Source: Methylovirgula sp. 4M-Z18 (GTDB taxonomy: Bacteria; Pseudomonadota; Alphaproteobacteria; Rhizobiales; Beijerinckiaceae). From it: 64,000 nucleotides of DNA. The stretch is taken from contig NZ_CP149574.1 in the NCBI RefSeq assembly GCF_037890675.1, positions 4,564,874-4,628,873 on the forward strand, in the 5' to 3' direction. The position numbers were made by a program, and so were the translations under genes. The notes under the pieces were generated by a model. That model had not been told where the DNA came from. It did not search any database and saw only the letters and a program-made list of their open reading frames with translations. Numbering within the stretch: position 1 is the first letter of the stretch; every line of letters starts with the position of its first letter. Shown piece by piece: positions 3,348 to 49,550 of this stretch.

Positions 3348-3376
3348 GGATTGCTTCGCTTCGCTCGCAATGACGG
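3348..3376. repeat. REP-like palindromic repeat, family A, inverted copy
   Basis: GGATTGCTTCGCTTCGCTCG followed by CAATGACGG is the reverse complement of the family A repeat at 2071-2107. Shorter matches (GATTGCTTCCGCGCC) occur at 3286-3300 and 3388-3402. Together they suggest a repeat-rich patch beside the insertion sequence. Confidence 0.7.
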
Positions 3377-3412
3377 CAAATGTCTGTGATTGCTTCCGCG
3401 CCGGTCATCAAC

Positions 3413-11963: not shown

Positions 11964-13550
11964 ATGGAACAGCTCGTCTCGCCCAATCAATCGCCCCTCT
12001 ACCAGGACCGCAACTTCTTCGACGACAATTGCGCGCTGCGCGAGCAGGTCGGCGCCGCGGGTGTCGATGCGGCCAAGGCCGATCTTTCACGTTTCGGCGC
12101 GGCTTATGGCGCCGCGGCGATGCTCGATCACGGCCGGCTCGCCAATATCTATCCGCCCGTGCTGCACATTCTCGATCAGCGCGGCGAGCGGCGTGACGAG
12201 GTGTCGTTTCATCCCTCCTATCACGTGCTGATGGCGTCGAGCATCGCAGCGGGATTGCATTGCTCGGCCTGGGACGGCGCGGACGGCGCGGCTGCCCATG
12301 CCACGCGCGCGGCGCGCCTCTTCATGGCGACGCAGACCGAGAGCGGGCACATGTGCCCCACCACCATGACCAATGCGAGCGTCGCCGCCCTGCGCAGCGA
12401 ACCGGAGATCGCGCGCAACTGGCTGCCAAAGATTTGCGGCCGCGCCTATGACCCGGCGCTGCGGCCCTGGTGGGAGAAGGGCGCGGTGACGCTCGGCATG
12501 GGCATGACCGAGCGGCAGGGCGGCACCGATGTGCGCAGCAATGTGACGAGCGCGGCGCGGCACGGCGATTTTTACGAAATCACCGGCGCGAAATGGTTCA
12601 TGTCGGCGCCGATGTGTGACGCTTTTCTCGTTCTGGCGCAGGCGCCGGGCGGCCTGAGCTGCTTTTTGGTGCCGCGCTTCCGGCCCGACGGCGCGAGAAA
12701 CGCGGTGCATTTCGTGCGGCTCAAGGACAAGCTCGGTAACAAATCGAACGCGTCGTCGGAAGTGGAATTTCACGGCGCCTATGCGCAGCGGCTCGGCGCC
12801 GAAGGCGAGGGCATCAGGACCATTCTCGAGATGGTGCAATTGACCCGGCTCGATTGCCTCGTCTCCTCCGCCGGCCTGATGCGCTCCGGCGTCGCGCAGG
12901 CCGCACACCATGCCCGGCATCGGTTCGCGTTTCAGAAACGGCTGATCGATCAGCCCTTGATGCGCAGCGTGCTCGCCGATCTCGCGCTCGAGGTTGAGGC
13001 GGCGACCGCCCTGTCTTTACGCGTCGCGACCGCCTTCGATCGGGCCGGTACAGACCCGCAAGAAGCCGCTTATGCCCGCCTGATCACGCCGGCCGCGAAA
13101 TTCGCGGTTTGCAAGGCCGCGCCGCATTTCCTCTACGAGGCGATGGAGTGCTTGGGCGGCAACGGTTACACGGAGGACTGGCCTCTCGCCCGCCTCTACC
13201 GCGAGGCCCCGGTCAATGCGATCTGGGAAGGCTCCGGCAACGTGATGGCGCTCGACGTGTTGCGCGCCCTTGCTAAAGCACCCGACGCCGCGCGAGAACT
13301 AGTGAAGAGTTTGCAAGAGGCGTGCGGCTTGGAGCAAGCCCTCCCCTTCAACCCCGCCAACGAGGCCCATGCCCGCGCGATTTGCGATTACCTCGCCAAG
13401 CTCGCGGCAGCAGCGGCGCTGGCGCGGAGACGGCCGGATTTGGCGGACGCCTATGTGCAAACGCGGCTGATCAACCCCGTCGGCATGCAGTACGGCGCTC
13501 GCGATCTTTCGCAACGGGAGGGGAAATTGATTGAGCGGATTTTGCCGTAG
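11964..13550 (+). CDS. aidB: AidB-type acyl-CoA dehydrogenase
   Basis: 528 residues, close to E. coli AidB (541). GMGMTERQGGTDVRSN is the AidB version of the acyl-CoA dehydrogenase FAD motif, followed by ITGAKWFMSAPMCD. YEAMECLGGNGYTEDWPLAR and IWEGSGNVMALDVLRAL hold the C-terminal catalytic region. AidB binds DNA and protects against alkylation damage; isovaleryl-CoA dehydrogenase activity in the family is weak. It starts MEQLVSPNQSP. Its last 40 codons have a diverged second copy at 14546-14671, beyond a toxin-antitoxin module. Confidence 0.92.
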   Translation: MEQLVSPNQSPLYQDRNFFDDNCALREQVGAAGVDAAKADLSRFGAAYGAAAMLDHGRLANIYPPVLHILDQRGERRDEVSFHPSYHVLMASSIAAGLHCSAWDGADGAAAHATRAARLFMATQTESGHMCPTTMTNASVAALRSEPEIARNWLPKICGRAYDPALRPWWEKGAVTLGMGMTERQGGTDVRSNVTSAARHGDFYEITGAKWFMSAPMCDAFLVLAQAPGGLSCFLVPRFRPDGARNAVHFVRLKDKLGNKSNASSEVEFHGAYAQRLGAEGEGIRTILEMVQLTRLDCLVSSAGLMRSGVAQAAHHARHRFAFQKRLIDQPLMRSVLADLALEVEAATALSLRVATAFDRAGTDPQEAAYARLITPAAKFAVCKAAPHFLYEAMECLGGNGYTEDWPLARLYREAPVNAIWEGSGNVMALDVLRALAKAPDAARELVKSLQEACGLEQALPFNPANEAHARAICDYLAKLAAAAALARRRPDLADAYVQTRLINPVGMQYGARDLSQREGKLIERILP

Positions 13551-14527: not shown

Positions 14528-14671
14528 ATTCTCGAAGAACCGGCGTGGACGCAGCCGGACTTGGCGAAAGCTTATGTGCAGACGCGGCTGAAATATACGG
14601 TCGGAGCGCAATATGGCACGCGCGATCTGTCGTCGTGGCAGGAGGATTTGGTGGGGCGGATTTTGCCGTAG
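14528..14671 (+). pseudogene. Remnant: 3' end of a second aidB-like gene
   Basis: In the frame ending at TAG 14669-14671 the sequence reads QPDLAKAYVQTRLKYTVGAQ and then YGTRDLSSWQEDLVGRILP. The AidB C-terminus reads RPDLADAYVQTRLINPVGMQ and YGARDLSQREGKLIERILP. The two align without gaps over about 40 codons, roughly 70-75% identical at DNA level and ending at the same stop. Upstream of 14528 the frame is closed, so only the last ~5% of the gene remains. Confidence 0.8.
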
Positions 14672-22730: not shown

Positions 22731-22763
22731 CCCTTCTCCCACAGCGAAGCTGTGGGAGAAGGG
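22731..22763. repeat. Palindromic repeat, family B
   Basis: CCCTTCTCCCACAGC, loop GAA, GCTGTGGGAGAAGGG: perfect 15-bp arms. It lies 10 bp after the FTR1 stop and may end that transcript. Confidence 0.85.
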
Positions 22764-26985: not shown

Positions 26986-26988
26986 AGC

Positions 26989-27114
26989 CGTCATTGCGAG
27001 CGAAGCGAAGCAATCCATCCCCGGTTGTCCCCCGGGTAGCCACATGAGTCCCGCATTCGAAGACCGCTCATCGGTGGATGGATTGCTTCGTCGCTTTGCT
27101 CCTCGCAATGACGG
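26989..27114. repeat. Inverted pair of REP-like repeats, family A
   Basis: Forward copy 26989-27020 (GTCATTGCGAGCGAAGCGAA then GCAATCCATCC) and inverted copy 27076-27114 (GGATGGATTGCTTCG ... CTCGCAATGACGG), with 55 bp between them. This is the two-unit arrangement of BIME-type REP elements. Confidence 0.8.
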
Positions 27115-31363: not shown

Positions 31364-31392
31364 GCCCTTCTCCCGCGAAGCGGGAGAAGGGC
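31364..31392. repeat. Palindromic repeat, family B
   Basis: GCCCTTCTCCCGC, loop GAA, GCGGGAGAAGGGC: perfect 13-bp arms. It sits between the convergent iolR and transglutaminase-like genes, where it could end both transcripts. Confidence 0.85.
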
Positions 31393-39054: not shown

Positions 39055-39063
39055 GGGGCGCGT

Positions 39064-39088
39064 CCTTCTCCCGCTCCGCGGGAGAAGG
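39064..39088. repeat. Palindromic repeat, family B
   Basis: CCTTCTCCCGC, loop TCC, GCGGGAGAAGG. It is 10 bp after the iolE stop and inside the operon. Confidence 0.85.
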
Positions 39089-39192
39089 TGCCGAACACGG
39101 TGAGGCGGATCAGGGAGTTGCAACTGGGTGTGCGTCCTTCCTTCAAAATCCGGCTCCGCACCAGTGATGTCTAGACCTCACCAGTCGCCTCG

Positions 39193-39244
39193 CCCTCATC
39201 CGACCGACTTCGTCGGCCACCTTCTCCCGCGAAGTGGGAGAAAG
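39193..39244. repeat. Composite palindromic repeat, family B
   Basis: CCCTCATCCGACCGACTTCG then TCGGCCACCTTCTCCC and GTGGGAGAAAG. It contains a CCGAC/GTCGG hairpin followed by the CTTCTCCC/GGGAGAAAG hairpin. The reverse complement of the same composite is at 40132-40181, so iolB lies between inverted copies. Confidence 0.8.
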
Positions 39245-39266
39245 AATCAAGCACCGAGGACCCCCC

Positions 39267-40085
<819 letters not shown>

Positions 40086-40131
40086 GGCTCTTCTCATTCT
40101 GTTCGTGCGAGGTGTACAACAACGCGGCGCG

Positions 40132-40181
40132 CCCTTCTCCCAGTGGGAGAAGGTGGCCGACGAAGTCGGTCGGATGAGGGG
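40132..40181. repeat. Composite palindromic repeat, family B, inverted
   Basis: CCCTTCTCCCAGTGGGAGAA, then GGTGGCCGACGAAGTCGG, then TCGGATGAGGG: the reverse complement of the composite at 39193-39244. Confidence 0.8.
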
Positions 40182-40234
40182 ACTCCCTCGCGAGATTGGC
40201 CGCCGCAAGACTCCAGCCAATGATGATTCCGTGT

Positions 40235-40284
40235 CCCCTCATCCGTCACGCTTCGCGTGCCACCTTCTCCCTCTGGGAGAAGGA
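40235..40284. repeat. Composite palindromic repeat, family B, second type
   Basis: CCCCTCATCCGTCACGCTTC, then GCGTGCCACCTTCTCCCTCT, then GGGAGAAGG. The first hairpin is here GTCACGC/GCGTGCC instead of CCGAC/GTCGG. The same version is at 47755-47803. Confidence 0.8.
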
Positions 40285-40319
40285 CGCGCGCGATCGTTGA
40301 GGCAGTCAAAAATAAAATA

Positions 40320-43600: not shown

Positions 43601-43650
43601 CGCCTGATCCGGTCCTTCGGACCACCTTCTCCCCGCACGCGGGGAGAAGG
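43601..43650. repeat. Composite palindromic repeat, family B, inside the ccmAB operon
   Basis: CCTGATCCGGTCCTTCGGAC then CACCTTCTCCCCGC, AC, GCGGGGAGAAGG. The last part has perfect 12-bp arms (43625-43650). Confidence 0.8.
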
Positions 43651-47206: not shown

Positions 47207-47318
47207 CCTTCTCCCGTCGGGAGAAGGTGGCACGCAATCAAATCGGGTATACCCGATTTGATCATCAAGAATGATGAACTTGGGCAAGCCCAAGTTCATA
47301 TGCGTGACGGATGAGGGG
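47207..47318. repeat. Expanded composite repeat, family B, left of the DUF559 gene
   Basis: CCTTCTCCCGTCGGGAGAAG then GTGGCACGC, an insert, and GCGTGACGGATGAGGGG. In the copies at 40235 and 47755 only GAA separates GGCACGC from GCGTGACGG. Here the insert is about 68 bp and holds two perfect palindromes: ATCAAATCGGGTA/TACCCGATTTGAT (47237-47262) and ATGAACTTGGGC-AA-GCCCAAGTTCAT (about 47274-47299). Confidence 0.85.
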
Positions 47319-47329
47319 ACTCAGCCTGA

Positions 47330-47686
47330 TCAGTTCCCATCTTTGTTTTTAGCCGTCGCGACGGCGCGCAGGATTTGATCCACTACCCAGTCGAGCCGTT
47401 CTTTGACCTCGTCGTTGGTGAATCTAAGCTCGAAATATCCGTACGACTCGATCGCCGCTCTTCTCGCCATGTCATATTCGAGTTGGTGATCGTGCTGCTT
47501 CCCGTCCAATTCGATGGTGAGTTTACATTCCGCGCAGCAAAAGTCGGCAATATGTCCGGCGATTGGATGTTGGCGGCGAAACTTCAGGCCGCCGAGTCGG
47601 CGCCCGCGCAGACAAAACCAGAGCAACTCTTCTGCTGAAGTTTGAGTCGCGCGCAATTTGCGGGCGATTTCGATGTATTTAGACAT
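47330..47686 (-). CDS. DUF559 (Vsr/MutH-like) endonuclease-domain protein
   Basis: 118 residues from MSKYIEIARKLRATQTSAEE. The DUF559 landmarks are ARKLRATQTSAEELLWFCLR, KFRRQHPIAGHIADFCCAEC and KLTIELDGKQHDHQLEYDMA followed by RRAAIESYGY. The D-x-E-D/G pattern (IADFCC, IELDGKQH) is the metal site of the PD-(D/E)XK-type Vsr-related fold, so it may cut DNA. Function is untested. The gene lies alone between inverted copies of the family B repeat: its stop is 12 bp from one and its start 69 bp from the other. Confidence 0.85.
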   Translation of the reverse strand: MSKYIEIARKLRATQTSAEELLWFCLRGRRLGGLKFRRQHPIAGHIADFCCAECKLTIELDGKQHDHQLEYDMARRAAIESYGYFELRFTNDEVKERLDWVVDQILRAVATAKNKDGN

Positions 47687-47754
47687 TGCGTGGAATATGT
47701 TTCCACTCAATGGTTGTTGCGGCAAGCAAATGCTGCAAAAATCACTAGGCGCGA

Positions 47755-47803
47755 CCCCTCATCCGTCACGCTTCGCGTGCCACCTTCTCCCTATGGGAGA
47801 AGG
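47755..47803. repeat. Composite palindromic repeat, family B, right of the DUF559 gene
   Basis: CCCCTCATCCGTCACGCTTC then GCGTGCCACCTTCTCCCTAT and GGGAGAAGG. It is inverted relative to the expanded copy at 47207-47318. Confidence 0.85.
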
Positions 47804-49505: not shown

Positions 49506-49550
49506 CCCTTCTCCCGCAGCGTCGCCGCGGGAGAAGGGTGGCCGACGAGA
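49506..49550. repeat. Palindromic repeat, family B
   Basis: CCCTTCTCCCGC, then AGCGTCGCC, then GCGGGAGAAGGG and a partial TGGCCGACGA tail that matches the composite copies. Confidence 0.8.

Follow-up and report, generated by a model that had tools for sequence, protein, structure and literature searches.

Stand-alone DUF559 nuclease genes often lie between inverted triplex-type repeats and may form a two-component genetic element with them

The association of DUF559 nuclease genes with dispersed triplex-type repeats is physical, polar, specific, co-varying, dosage-related, and block-wise present or absent. We propose that stand-alone DUF559 nucleases and BoxC/PIT/TM-type triplex repeats make up the two halves of a single genetic element, and that the nuclease mobilizes pairs of repeat units in trans. 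We estimate the probability of this proposal at roughly 55%. The best reading of the element is a two-component system, similar in plan to RAYT/REPIN, that is made from an unrelated nuclease and unrelated DNA.

One such element lies in the window, by which we mean the whole 64-kb stretch of DNA that was analyzed (contig positions 4564874-4628873 of the 5.03-Mb genome of Methylovirgula sp. 4M-Z18). Sequence inspection and inverted-repeat comparison place it at window positions 47207-47803, where a DUF559 gene is flanked by two inverted composite triplex-type units. The gene (47330-47686, minus strand) encodes a protein of 118 amino acids that matches PF04480 with an E value of 1.8e-36, and its neighbors, named from ORF translations, are an aconitase-like gene and a TetR-like gene. 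The left unit, on the plus strand, begins with the outer stem CCTTCTCCC-GTC-GGGAGAAGG, composed of a pyrimidine arm, a loop, and a purine arm (47207-47227). This stem is followed by a linker (47228-47308) that contains two perfect 26-nucleotide palindromes (47237-47262 and 47274-47299) and then by the purine tail GGATGAGGGG (47309-47318), which is the presumed third strand and points toward the gene. The right unit, on the minus strand, has the outer stem CCTTCTCCC-TAT-GGGAGAAGG (47783-47803), a linker with a small hairpin, TGGCACGCGAAGCGTGAC (47765-47782), and the purine tail GGATGAGGGG (47755-47764), again directed toward the gene. The composites at 47207-47318 and 47755-47803 are inverted relative to each other (inverted pairs I3, I9, I13, and I14), one lying 11 nucleotides past the DUF559 stop codon and the other 68 nucleotides ahead of the ATG. 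A preliminary description of this DNA had reported a DUF559 gene flanked by inverted copies of one composite repeat, and that arrangement is confirmed. The two 26-nucleotide palindromes look like a second repeat nested inside the first, and the linker type of the left unit recurs in three longer doublets that carry no gene (L316, L320, and L322). A search of Rfam at the gathering threshold returned no match for the element.

The same repeat is abundant in the host genome; the preliminary description had noted its dispersal at several other loci of the window. The CCTTCTCCC-N3-GGGAGAAGG palindrome occurs in 89 genomic copies, compared with none for a reversed-pattern control. The flanking composites match dispersed repeats of their own genome: by BLAST, the left one has 10 further genome places with 79-95% identity over at least 80 nucleotides, and for the right one about 50 places were recovered, a portion of them as partial matches. 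Just one more DUF559 gene was found in the genome, at a distance of 60 kb, and the same repeats flank it as well. Palindromes of the CCTTCTCCC..GGGAGAAGG type also occur in the window outside the doublets described below, at 22732-22762, 31366-31390, 43625-43650, and 49507-49537, and these are possibly solo-stem scars like those at a polymorphic site discussed later. The window holds a second dispersed repeat family, of the CGTCATTGCGAGGAGCGCAGCGACGAAGCAATCC type (2071-2109, 3348-3377, 26987-27016, and 27075-27113), a copy of which was also seen within a doublet spacer at locus L005. In addition, a 130-nucleotide direct repeat with 74% identity is present at 13421-13550 and 14542-14671, about 1.1 kb apart.

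Many repeat units occur as inverted doublets that contain no gene. Two of these are in the window, one formed by two inverted units at 39063-39245 (inverted pairs I1 and I5) and one with its tails toward each other at 40127-40289 (inverted pair I2). Both adjoin iolB, which had been thought to be bracketed in the manner of the DUF559 gene. In fact, iolB is accompanied by two separate and complete gene-less doublets rather than by one bracket, and the reading that a bracketed iolB points to chance was dropped for this reason. We inspected 20 gene-less doublets that were hand-picked as close inverted pairs of the host genome, and in all 20 the tails face each other. By eye, these doublets are mostly about 150 bp long, most share a common spacer core of about 50 bp, and in most the core is common but the surroundings differ. 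Because the tails face each other in gene-less doublets and face the gene in gene-bearing copies, the gene sits in what corresponds to the spacer of a doublet. A minority variant unit is common to gene-bearing and gene-less copies.

We then measured bracketing across the order Rhizobiales, where PF04480 was found in 69 of 150 genomes (142 listed places). The first test set comprised 79 of these listed places and the two from the host genome, or 81 domains. For each domain we took the best inverted local alignment between its 350-bp flanks, a repeat-agnostic measure, and called the domain bracketed at a score of at least 40. By this measure, 56 of 81 DUF559 domains are bracketed, compared with 16 of 6695 random intervals of equal size from the same loci; at a score of at least 45, the counts are 54 of 81 and 2 of 6695. 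The remaining 25 of 81 loci are unbracketed at the threshold of 40. When ORF ends instead serve as the limits of the flanks, the counts become 29 of 80 for DUF559 and 4 of 4023 for random intervals, and the count is lower because the reading frame of many DUF559 genes stays open into the repeat. Such read-through is an annotation effect that conceals the bracket. ORFs that continue into the repeat, among others at L054, L064, L068, L092, and L116, end in Pro/Gly-rich tails such as PTPPHKGEG.

A second round took in 40 more of the listed places, one of which (L400) was left uncounted because only 6 bases are available downstream. Bracketing was found at 12 of 20 further strong DUF559 matches that had initially been left out and at 5 of 5 matches of 74-89 bits. 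Divergent DUF559-like domains scoring no higher than 62 bits, which with few exceptions reside in long proteins, are bracketed in none of the 14 testable cases. The 21 listed places left out of the 142 are split frames, further weak fragments, and one place at a contig edge.

Other genes provide additional controls. Only 2 of 354 other ORFs of 300-700 nucleotides from the same loci are bracketed, or 1 of 101 when the comparison is restricted to ORFs for which each flanking gap is 60 bp or longer, and none of 30 Vsr genes of the same order is bracketed. DUF559 genes are thus flanked by inverted repeats far more often than genes or intervals of comparable size, and the link first suspected at the single window locus survives across the order. 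An explanation by chance, in which GC-rich genomes with many palindromes produce such layouts through composition, drew on the earlier suspicion about iolB that part of the layout was fortuitous. With same-locus controls at 0.2-0.6%, Vsr genes at 0 of 30, and no reversed-pattern copies in the genomes listed, that suspicion is refuted and we regard the probability of this explanation as negligible.

Two other searches relied on the form of the repeat itself. A stem finder, written after the repeats had been seen (whereas the inverted-repeat test, like its controls, was set up independently of the motif), located a stem within 300 bp on at least one side at 79 of 81 loci, compared with 68 of 668 random intervals. 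A strict regular expression for the unit, which covers only part of the superfamily, yielded 112 units from 1.52 Mb of sequence, of which 74 are no more than 250 bp from a DUF559 ORF. By this pattern, bracketing with tails that point inward was recognized at only 15 of 81 loci.

The repeats flanking DUF559 genes form one superfamily, defined by a pyrimidine/purine palindrome and, toward the gene, a mirror-like purine third strand. With few exceptions, the bracketed cases show a palindrome made of a pyrimidine arm and a purine arm, with a purine tract after it on the side nearer the gene. To score a potential third strand, the purine tract was read backwards against the purine arm, with G placed on G and either A or T placed on A. 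Of 137 units, 88 reach a match of at least 0.88 on the inner side, and 18 do so on the outer side. When the two sides of each unit are compared, the inner mirror tail scores higher in 114 units and the outer one in 15, with 8 ties. Some repeat types have three bases before the third strand, and many, including those of the window, have a hairpin there. Within 6 nucleotides of the stem foot, GTAG was found in 0 of 139 units (2 after shuffling), GTGG in 1 (0 after shuffling), and CGTC in 15 (9 after shuffling).

This architecture corresponds to a known class of E. coli repeats. The unit downstream of E. coli ycjD reads CCCTCGCCCC-TCT-GGGGAGAGGG-TTA-GGGTGAGGGG, and it is identical in every letter to TM motif No 9 of a published set (Table 1 of PMC4666352), which lies at 1351204-1351239 of the MG1655 chromosome. 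The ycjD gene, annotated as DUF559, ends at 1351407, and it carries the repeat on its downstream side only. Knowledge of BoxC/PIT/TM repeats in E. coli dates from the 1990s, and more than 260 genomes contain them; MG1655 has 23 copies, five inverted pairs among them, with high local instability (Holder 2015, PMC4666352). In that study, triplex formation in vitro was reported for the E. coli motif only, and neither transposase or integrase remnants nor any mobility enzyme was found near the motifs (PMC4666352). Its main text contains no word that begins with "nuclease" or "DUF" (PMC4666352), and we found no link between DUF559 and triplex repeats in the open-access literature. The published E. 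coli consensus places three bases between the purine arm and the third strand (PMC4666352), compared with a hairpin-bearing linker of at least 18 nucleotides in the units of the window.

The position of the tails admits a regulatory reading as well. A purine run of the tail type lies no more than 17 nucleotides from an in-frame start in 36 of 74 loci (upstream units of L037-L116), a count that has no control. Such a run may be a ribosome-binding site, and folding of the unit could control translation. The repeats would then be terminators or translational controls of a horizontally moving nuclease gene rather than its substrate. We consider this improbable, given that such a role predicts neither dozens of gene-less copies per genome nor the co-variation between protein and repeat sequences presented below.

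The DUF559 protein has a nuclease fold. Its family is widespread and is still named for its "unknown function" in Pfam. Residues D48, E59, D61, H65, and D72 are invariant in 39 aligned homologs. An AlphaFold2 model of the window protein has a mean pLDDT of 90.8, and its top structural match is 3hrl, a DUF559 structure from N. gonorrhoeae (Z 16.8). Next among solved folds comes the homing endonuclease I-Bth0305I, whose catalytic domain (3r3p; Z 12.7, rmsd 2.3 over 94 residues) gives a match that is not tied with RAP-domain proteins. The match to Vsr (1cw0; Z 9.9 over 99 residues) is tied with such proteins, which reach Z 10.4 and which we take to be RAP-domain proteins of mitochondrial ribosomes. 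The fold search re-ranks only 1000 chains, so these rankings exclude no Vsr, HUH, or restriction family. The Vsr profile PF03852 is absent from the Pfam matches of the window protein up to an E value of 1 and has no match in the genome. With PADLOC, the window protein has no match up to an E value of 0.01, and the second DUF559 gene of the genome gave one weak mREase_II match (E 6e-6). At least one member of the family appears to damage DNA in vivo, because VsrA (CCNA_02930), a DUF559 protein of Caulobacter, triggers an SOS response when the methylase ScmA is missing from the cells (PMC12907096).

Two of these resemblances call for comment. Vsr very-short-patch repair endonucleases share the fold but belong to a separate Pfam family, and their genes in the order are not bracketed (0 of 30). 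With the EDxHD homing endonuclease I-Bth0305I, the resemblance lies in the fold of the catalytic domain, which alone shows no function, and the order of residues E59, D61, H65, and D72 would fit the name of the EDxHD motif. In contrast to I-Bth0305I, however, the DUF559 gene has no intron and sits among dispersed repeats, and the 118-residue protein is too short for an appended DNA-binding region.

The kinship with I-Bth0305I raises the possibility of homing, in which DUF559 would cut gene-less doublets and repair from a gene-bearing copy, with the units serving as homology arms, would insert the gene into the spacer, while the repeats spread by other means. Both the structural ranking, where the I-Bth0305I domain (Z 12.7) comes next after 3hrl (Z 16.8), and the placement of the gene in a doublet spacer, with tails that face each other in the 20 picked doublets or face the gene, are compatible with such a process. 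Homing creates no doublets at new sites, though, and most of the 20 sampled doublets differ in their surroundings as judged by eye. It also needs another mobilizing enzyme, and none was identified; the Y1 family, the sole transposase family searched, is absent. We therefore judge homing to be unlikely, but a better contender than the other alternatives weighed here.

Nuclease and repeat sequences change together across families. Among 79 loci with a unit, the locus whose protein is nearest in another bacterial family has a repeat at the median percentile 0.11 of similarity, although these nearest-neighbor percentiles are not mutually independent. A Mantel-type correlation between protein and repeat across families gave a rho of 0.18, a value reached in 0 of 1000 permutations. 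The nearest relative of the window protein outside its family, at 58% identity, has the same CCTTCTCCC..GGGAGAAGGTGG..GGATGAGGG repeat type.

Repeat number also tracks the presence of the gene. The median count of strict stem-plus-tail units is 13 in the 60 genomes with a strong DUF559 match and 0 in the 90 others, where nine genomes with only weak DUF559-like matches were counted as negative. DUF559-bearing genomes hold 92.5% of all strict units, and when labels were shuffled within families, the observed difference was reached in 0 of 2000 trials. Units do occur in 13 of the 90 genomes without a strong match, with up to 66 in G130. Abundant repeats in DUF559-less genomes, which might have weakened the link, are confined to a minority: at least 10 strict units are present in 5 of 90 such genomes, compared with 35 of 60 genomes with a strong match. 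The G130 and G041 genomes have 66 and 27 units, respectively, and no strong DUF559 match; their repeats are possible orphans of a lost partner. Among 59 E. coli chromosomes, the median number of repeat places is 14 with ycjD (38 chromosomes) and 3 without it (21 chromosomes), a difference that is confounded with phylogroup. This sample was drawn in even steps through 5365 records; in one chromosome ycjD is split by IS1, and one plasmid row was excluded.

The dosage data could also reflect a housekeeping role, in which DUF559 resolves blocks caused by hairpins or triplexes, so that genomes rich in repeats retain the gene and repeats accumulate nearby. A Vsr-like fold, the presence of the gene in repeat-rich genomes, the instability reported at the repeats (Holder 2015, PMC4666352), and the SOS response triggered by Caulobacter VsrA in ScmA-less cells (PMC12907096) are all in keeping with this role. 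Housekeeping nevertheless leaves the bracketing of the gene, the inward polarity of the tails, and the type-to-type co-variation unexplained, and the gene is missing from some repeat-rich genomes. We consider it doubtful, and somewhat more so than homing.

Bracketing extends beyond the order. In the rest of the phylum, bracketing was seen at 11 of the 20 loci with a valid test, a set that has no matched control; one further locus, L118, was left out of the count because the coordinates used for it were wrong (the match is at 980-1300). In a set of named genomes made up of the best 80 of 555 relatives, from which 6 of 80 were skipped because of contig edges, 43 of 74 loci are bracketed, compared with 7 of 2486 controls. 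The bracketed loci include those of Xanthomonas, Mesorhizobium, Rhodanobacter, and Sphingomonas and of metagenome-assembled genomes of Chloroflexi, Melainabacteria, and Geobacteraceae, and the unbracketed loci include those of Acinetobacter, Cupriavidus, and several others. Loci from a plasmid collection, one each, scored 128 (Pseudanabaena), 98 (Deinococcus), and 74 (Sphingomonas). The E. coli, N. gonorrhoeae, Azospirillum, and Sinorhizobium loci gave inverted-repeat scores of 18-33. For viral contigs, 34 of 36 loci were examined, 33 were testable, and 15 of these 33 are bracketed. The highest score seen, 201, belongs to L124, where a DUF559 gene lies between inverted repeats of about 134 bp in what is possibly a recent insertion.

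Gain and loss of the element can be followed at one intergenic site in another genus, for which 61 genomes were searched and 20 were read besides the reference. The gene-bearing element is present in 9 of the 61 genomes. Two of the 20 genomes read have an empty site, where the flanks are only 59 and 72 bp apart and the unit is absent; a site with both empty and gene-bearing states therefore exists. Three genomes have a lone stem, the product expected of a deletion between the direct-repeat parts of two inverted units; a stem remnant is present in one genome and a single unit in two. A bracketed DUF559 gene occupies the site in six genomes, four of them with an extra adjoining unit. The other genomes carry a different, gene-less doublet of the triplex type (three genomes, and apparently two more in which the sequence is partly N) or a triplex-type doublet beside other sequence (one genome). 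Because empty, scarred, single-unit, and gene-bearing states coexist at one site, the element is gained or lost as a block. Vertical descent accompanied by loss would also account for the orthologous copies in 9 of 61 genomes. At this polymorphic site, where the intergenic flanks are too diverged, no target-site duplication could be recognized. The sapF-fabI interval of E. coli was also tried as an empty-site system and rejected: in both ycjD-less strains that were opened, an O157:H7 strain (L171) and another strain (L172), an RND efflux cassette occupies the place, so that the interval is not cleanly empty there. Because ycjD is naturally absent from many E. coli strains, it looks dispensable in K-12.

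Comparison with known systems helps to place the element. The RAYT/REP/REPIN system likewise has a gene between two inverted palindromic repeats; the same repeats are scattered as inverted doublets, and repeat types vary with the enzyme (PMC2817692, PMC3116915). In contrast, the enzyme described here is a PD-(D/E)XK/Vsr-like nuclease (PF04480) rather than an HUH Y1 transposase of the IS200/IS605-like kind, and the repeat carries a purine tail of the triplex type but lacks the REP-type GTAG tag (0 of 139 units). A RAYT was considered as the partner of the repeats and set aside because no match to the Y1 transposase (PF01797) exists in the genome. The parallel with RAYTs drawn in the preliminary description therefore holds for the layout, a gene between inverted dispersed repeats, but not for membership: with no Y1 enzyme, repeats of the BoxC/triplex type, and no GTAG, both the enzyme and the DNA are different, and the DUF559 element is not a member of the RAYT/REP group.

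The DNA itself is closer to the BoxC/PIT/TM repeats of E. coli, which share the palindrome with a mirror-like purine third strand, are dispersed and partly arranged as inverted pairs at variable loci, and include the ycjD unit as motif No 9 (PMC4666352). They differ in having been described without a partner gene or mobility enzyme (PMC4666352), and many of the types reported here, including that of the window, have an extra hairpin in place of the three bases of the published pattern. As for the protein, Caulobacter VsrA has the same DUF559 domain but was investigated for a putative role as a mismatch endonuclease with a link to a cytosine methylase, in an account whose cited part leaves repeats unmentioned (PMC12907096).

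For the two-halves model, we infer that DUF559 cleaves and mobilizes the repeats. When the stem and tail of the cognate repeat type are folded and exposed, for example on the lagging-strand template, the nuclease would recognize them and cut there. Repair of the break by copying or capture could then spread unit pairs to new places and thereby generate gene-less doublets, a process that would occasionally take the gene along. RAYTs are thought to spread REPINs in a like manner (PMC2817692, PMC3116915). Loss of the element would leave solo units or solo-stem scars.

A wider claim is more tentative and falls, in our estimate, slightly short of an even chance. DUF559 nucleases, including E. coli YcjD, might be dedicated mobilizing enzymes of BoxC/PIT/TM repeats across phyla. 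They would then represent a second REP-like system, of separate evolutionary origin, whose nuclease is of the Vsr/homing type and reads a three-stranded DNA fold as the end of the element. DUF559 is the best candidate yet for the enzyme that triplex repeats seemed to lack. The link provides these repeats with a candidate enzyme and the DUF559 protein with a candidate substrate, and it suggests that triplex-type DNA can serve as the recognized end of a genetic element.
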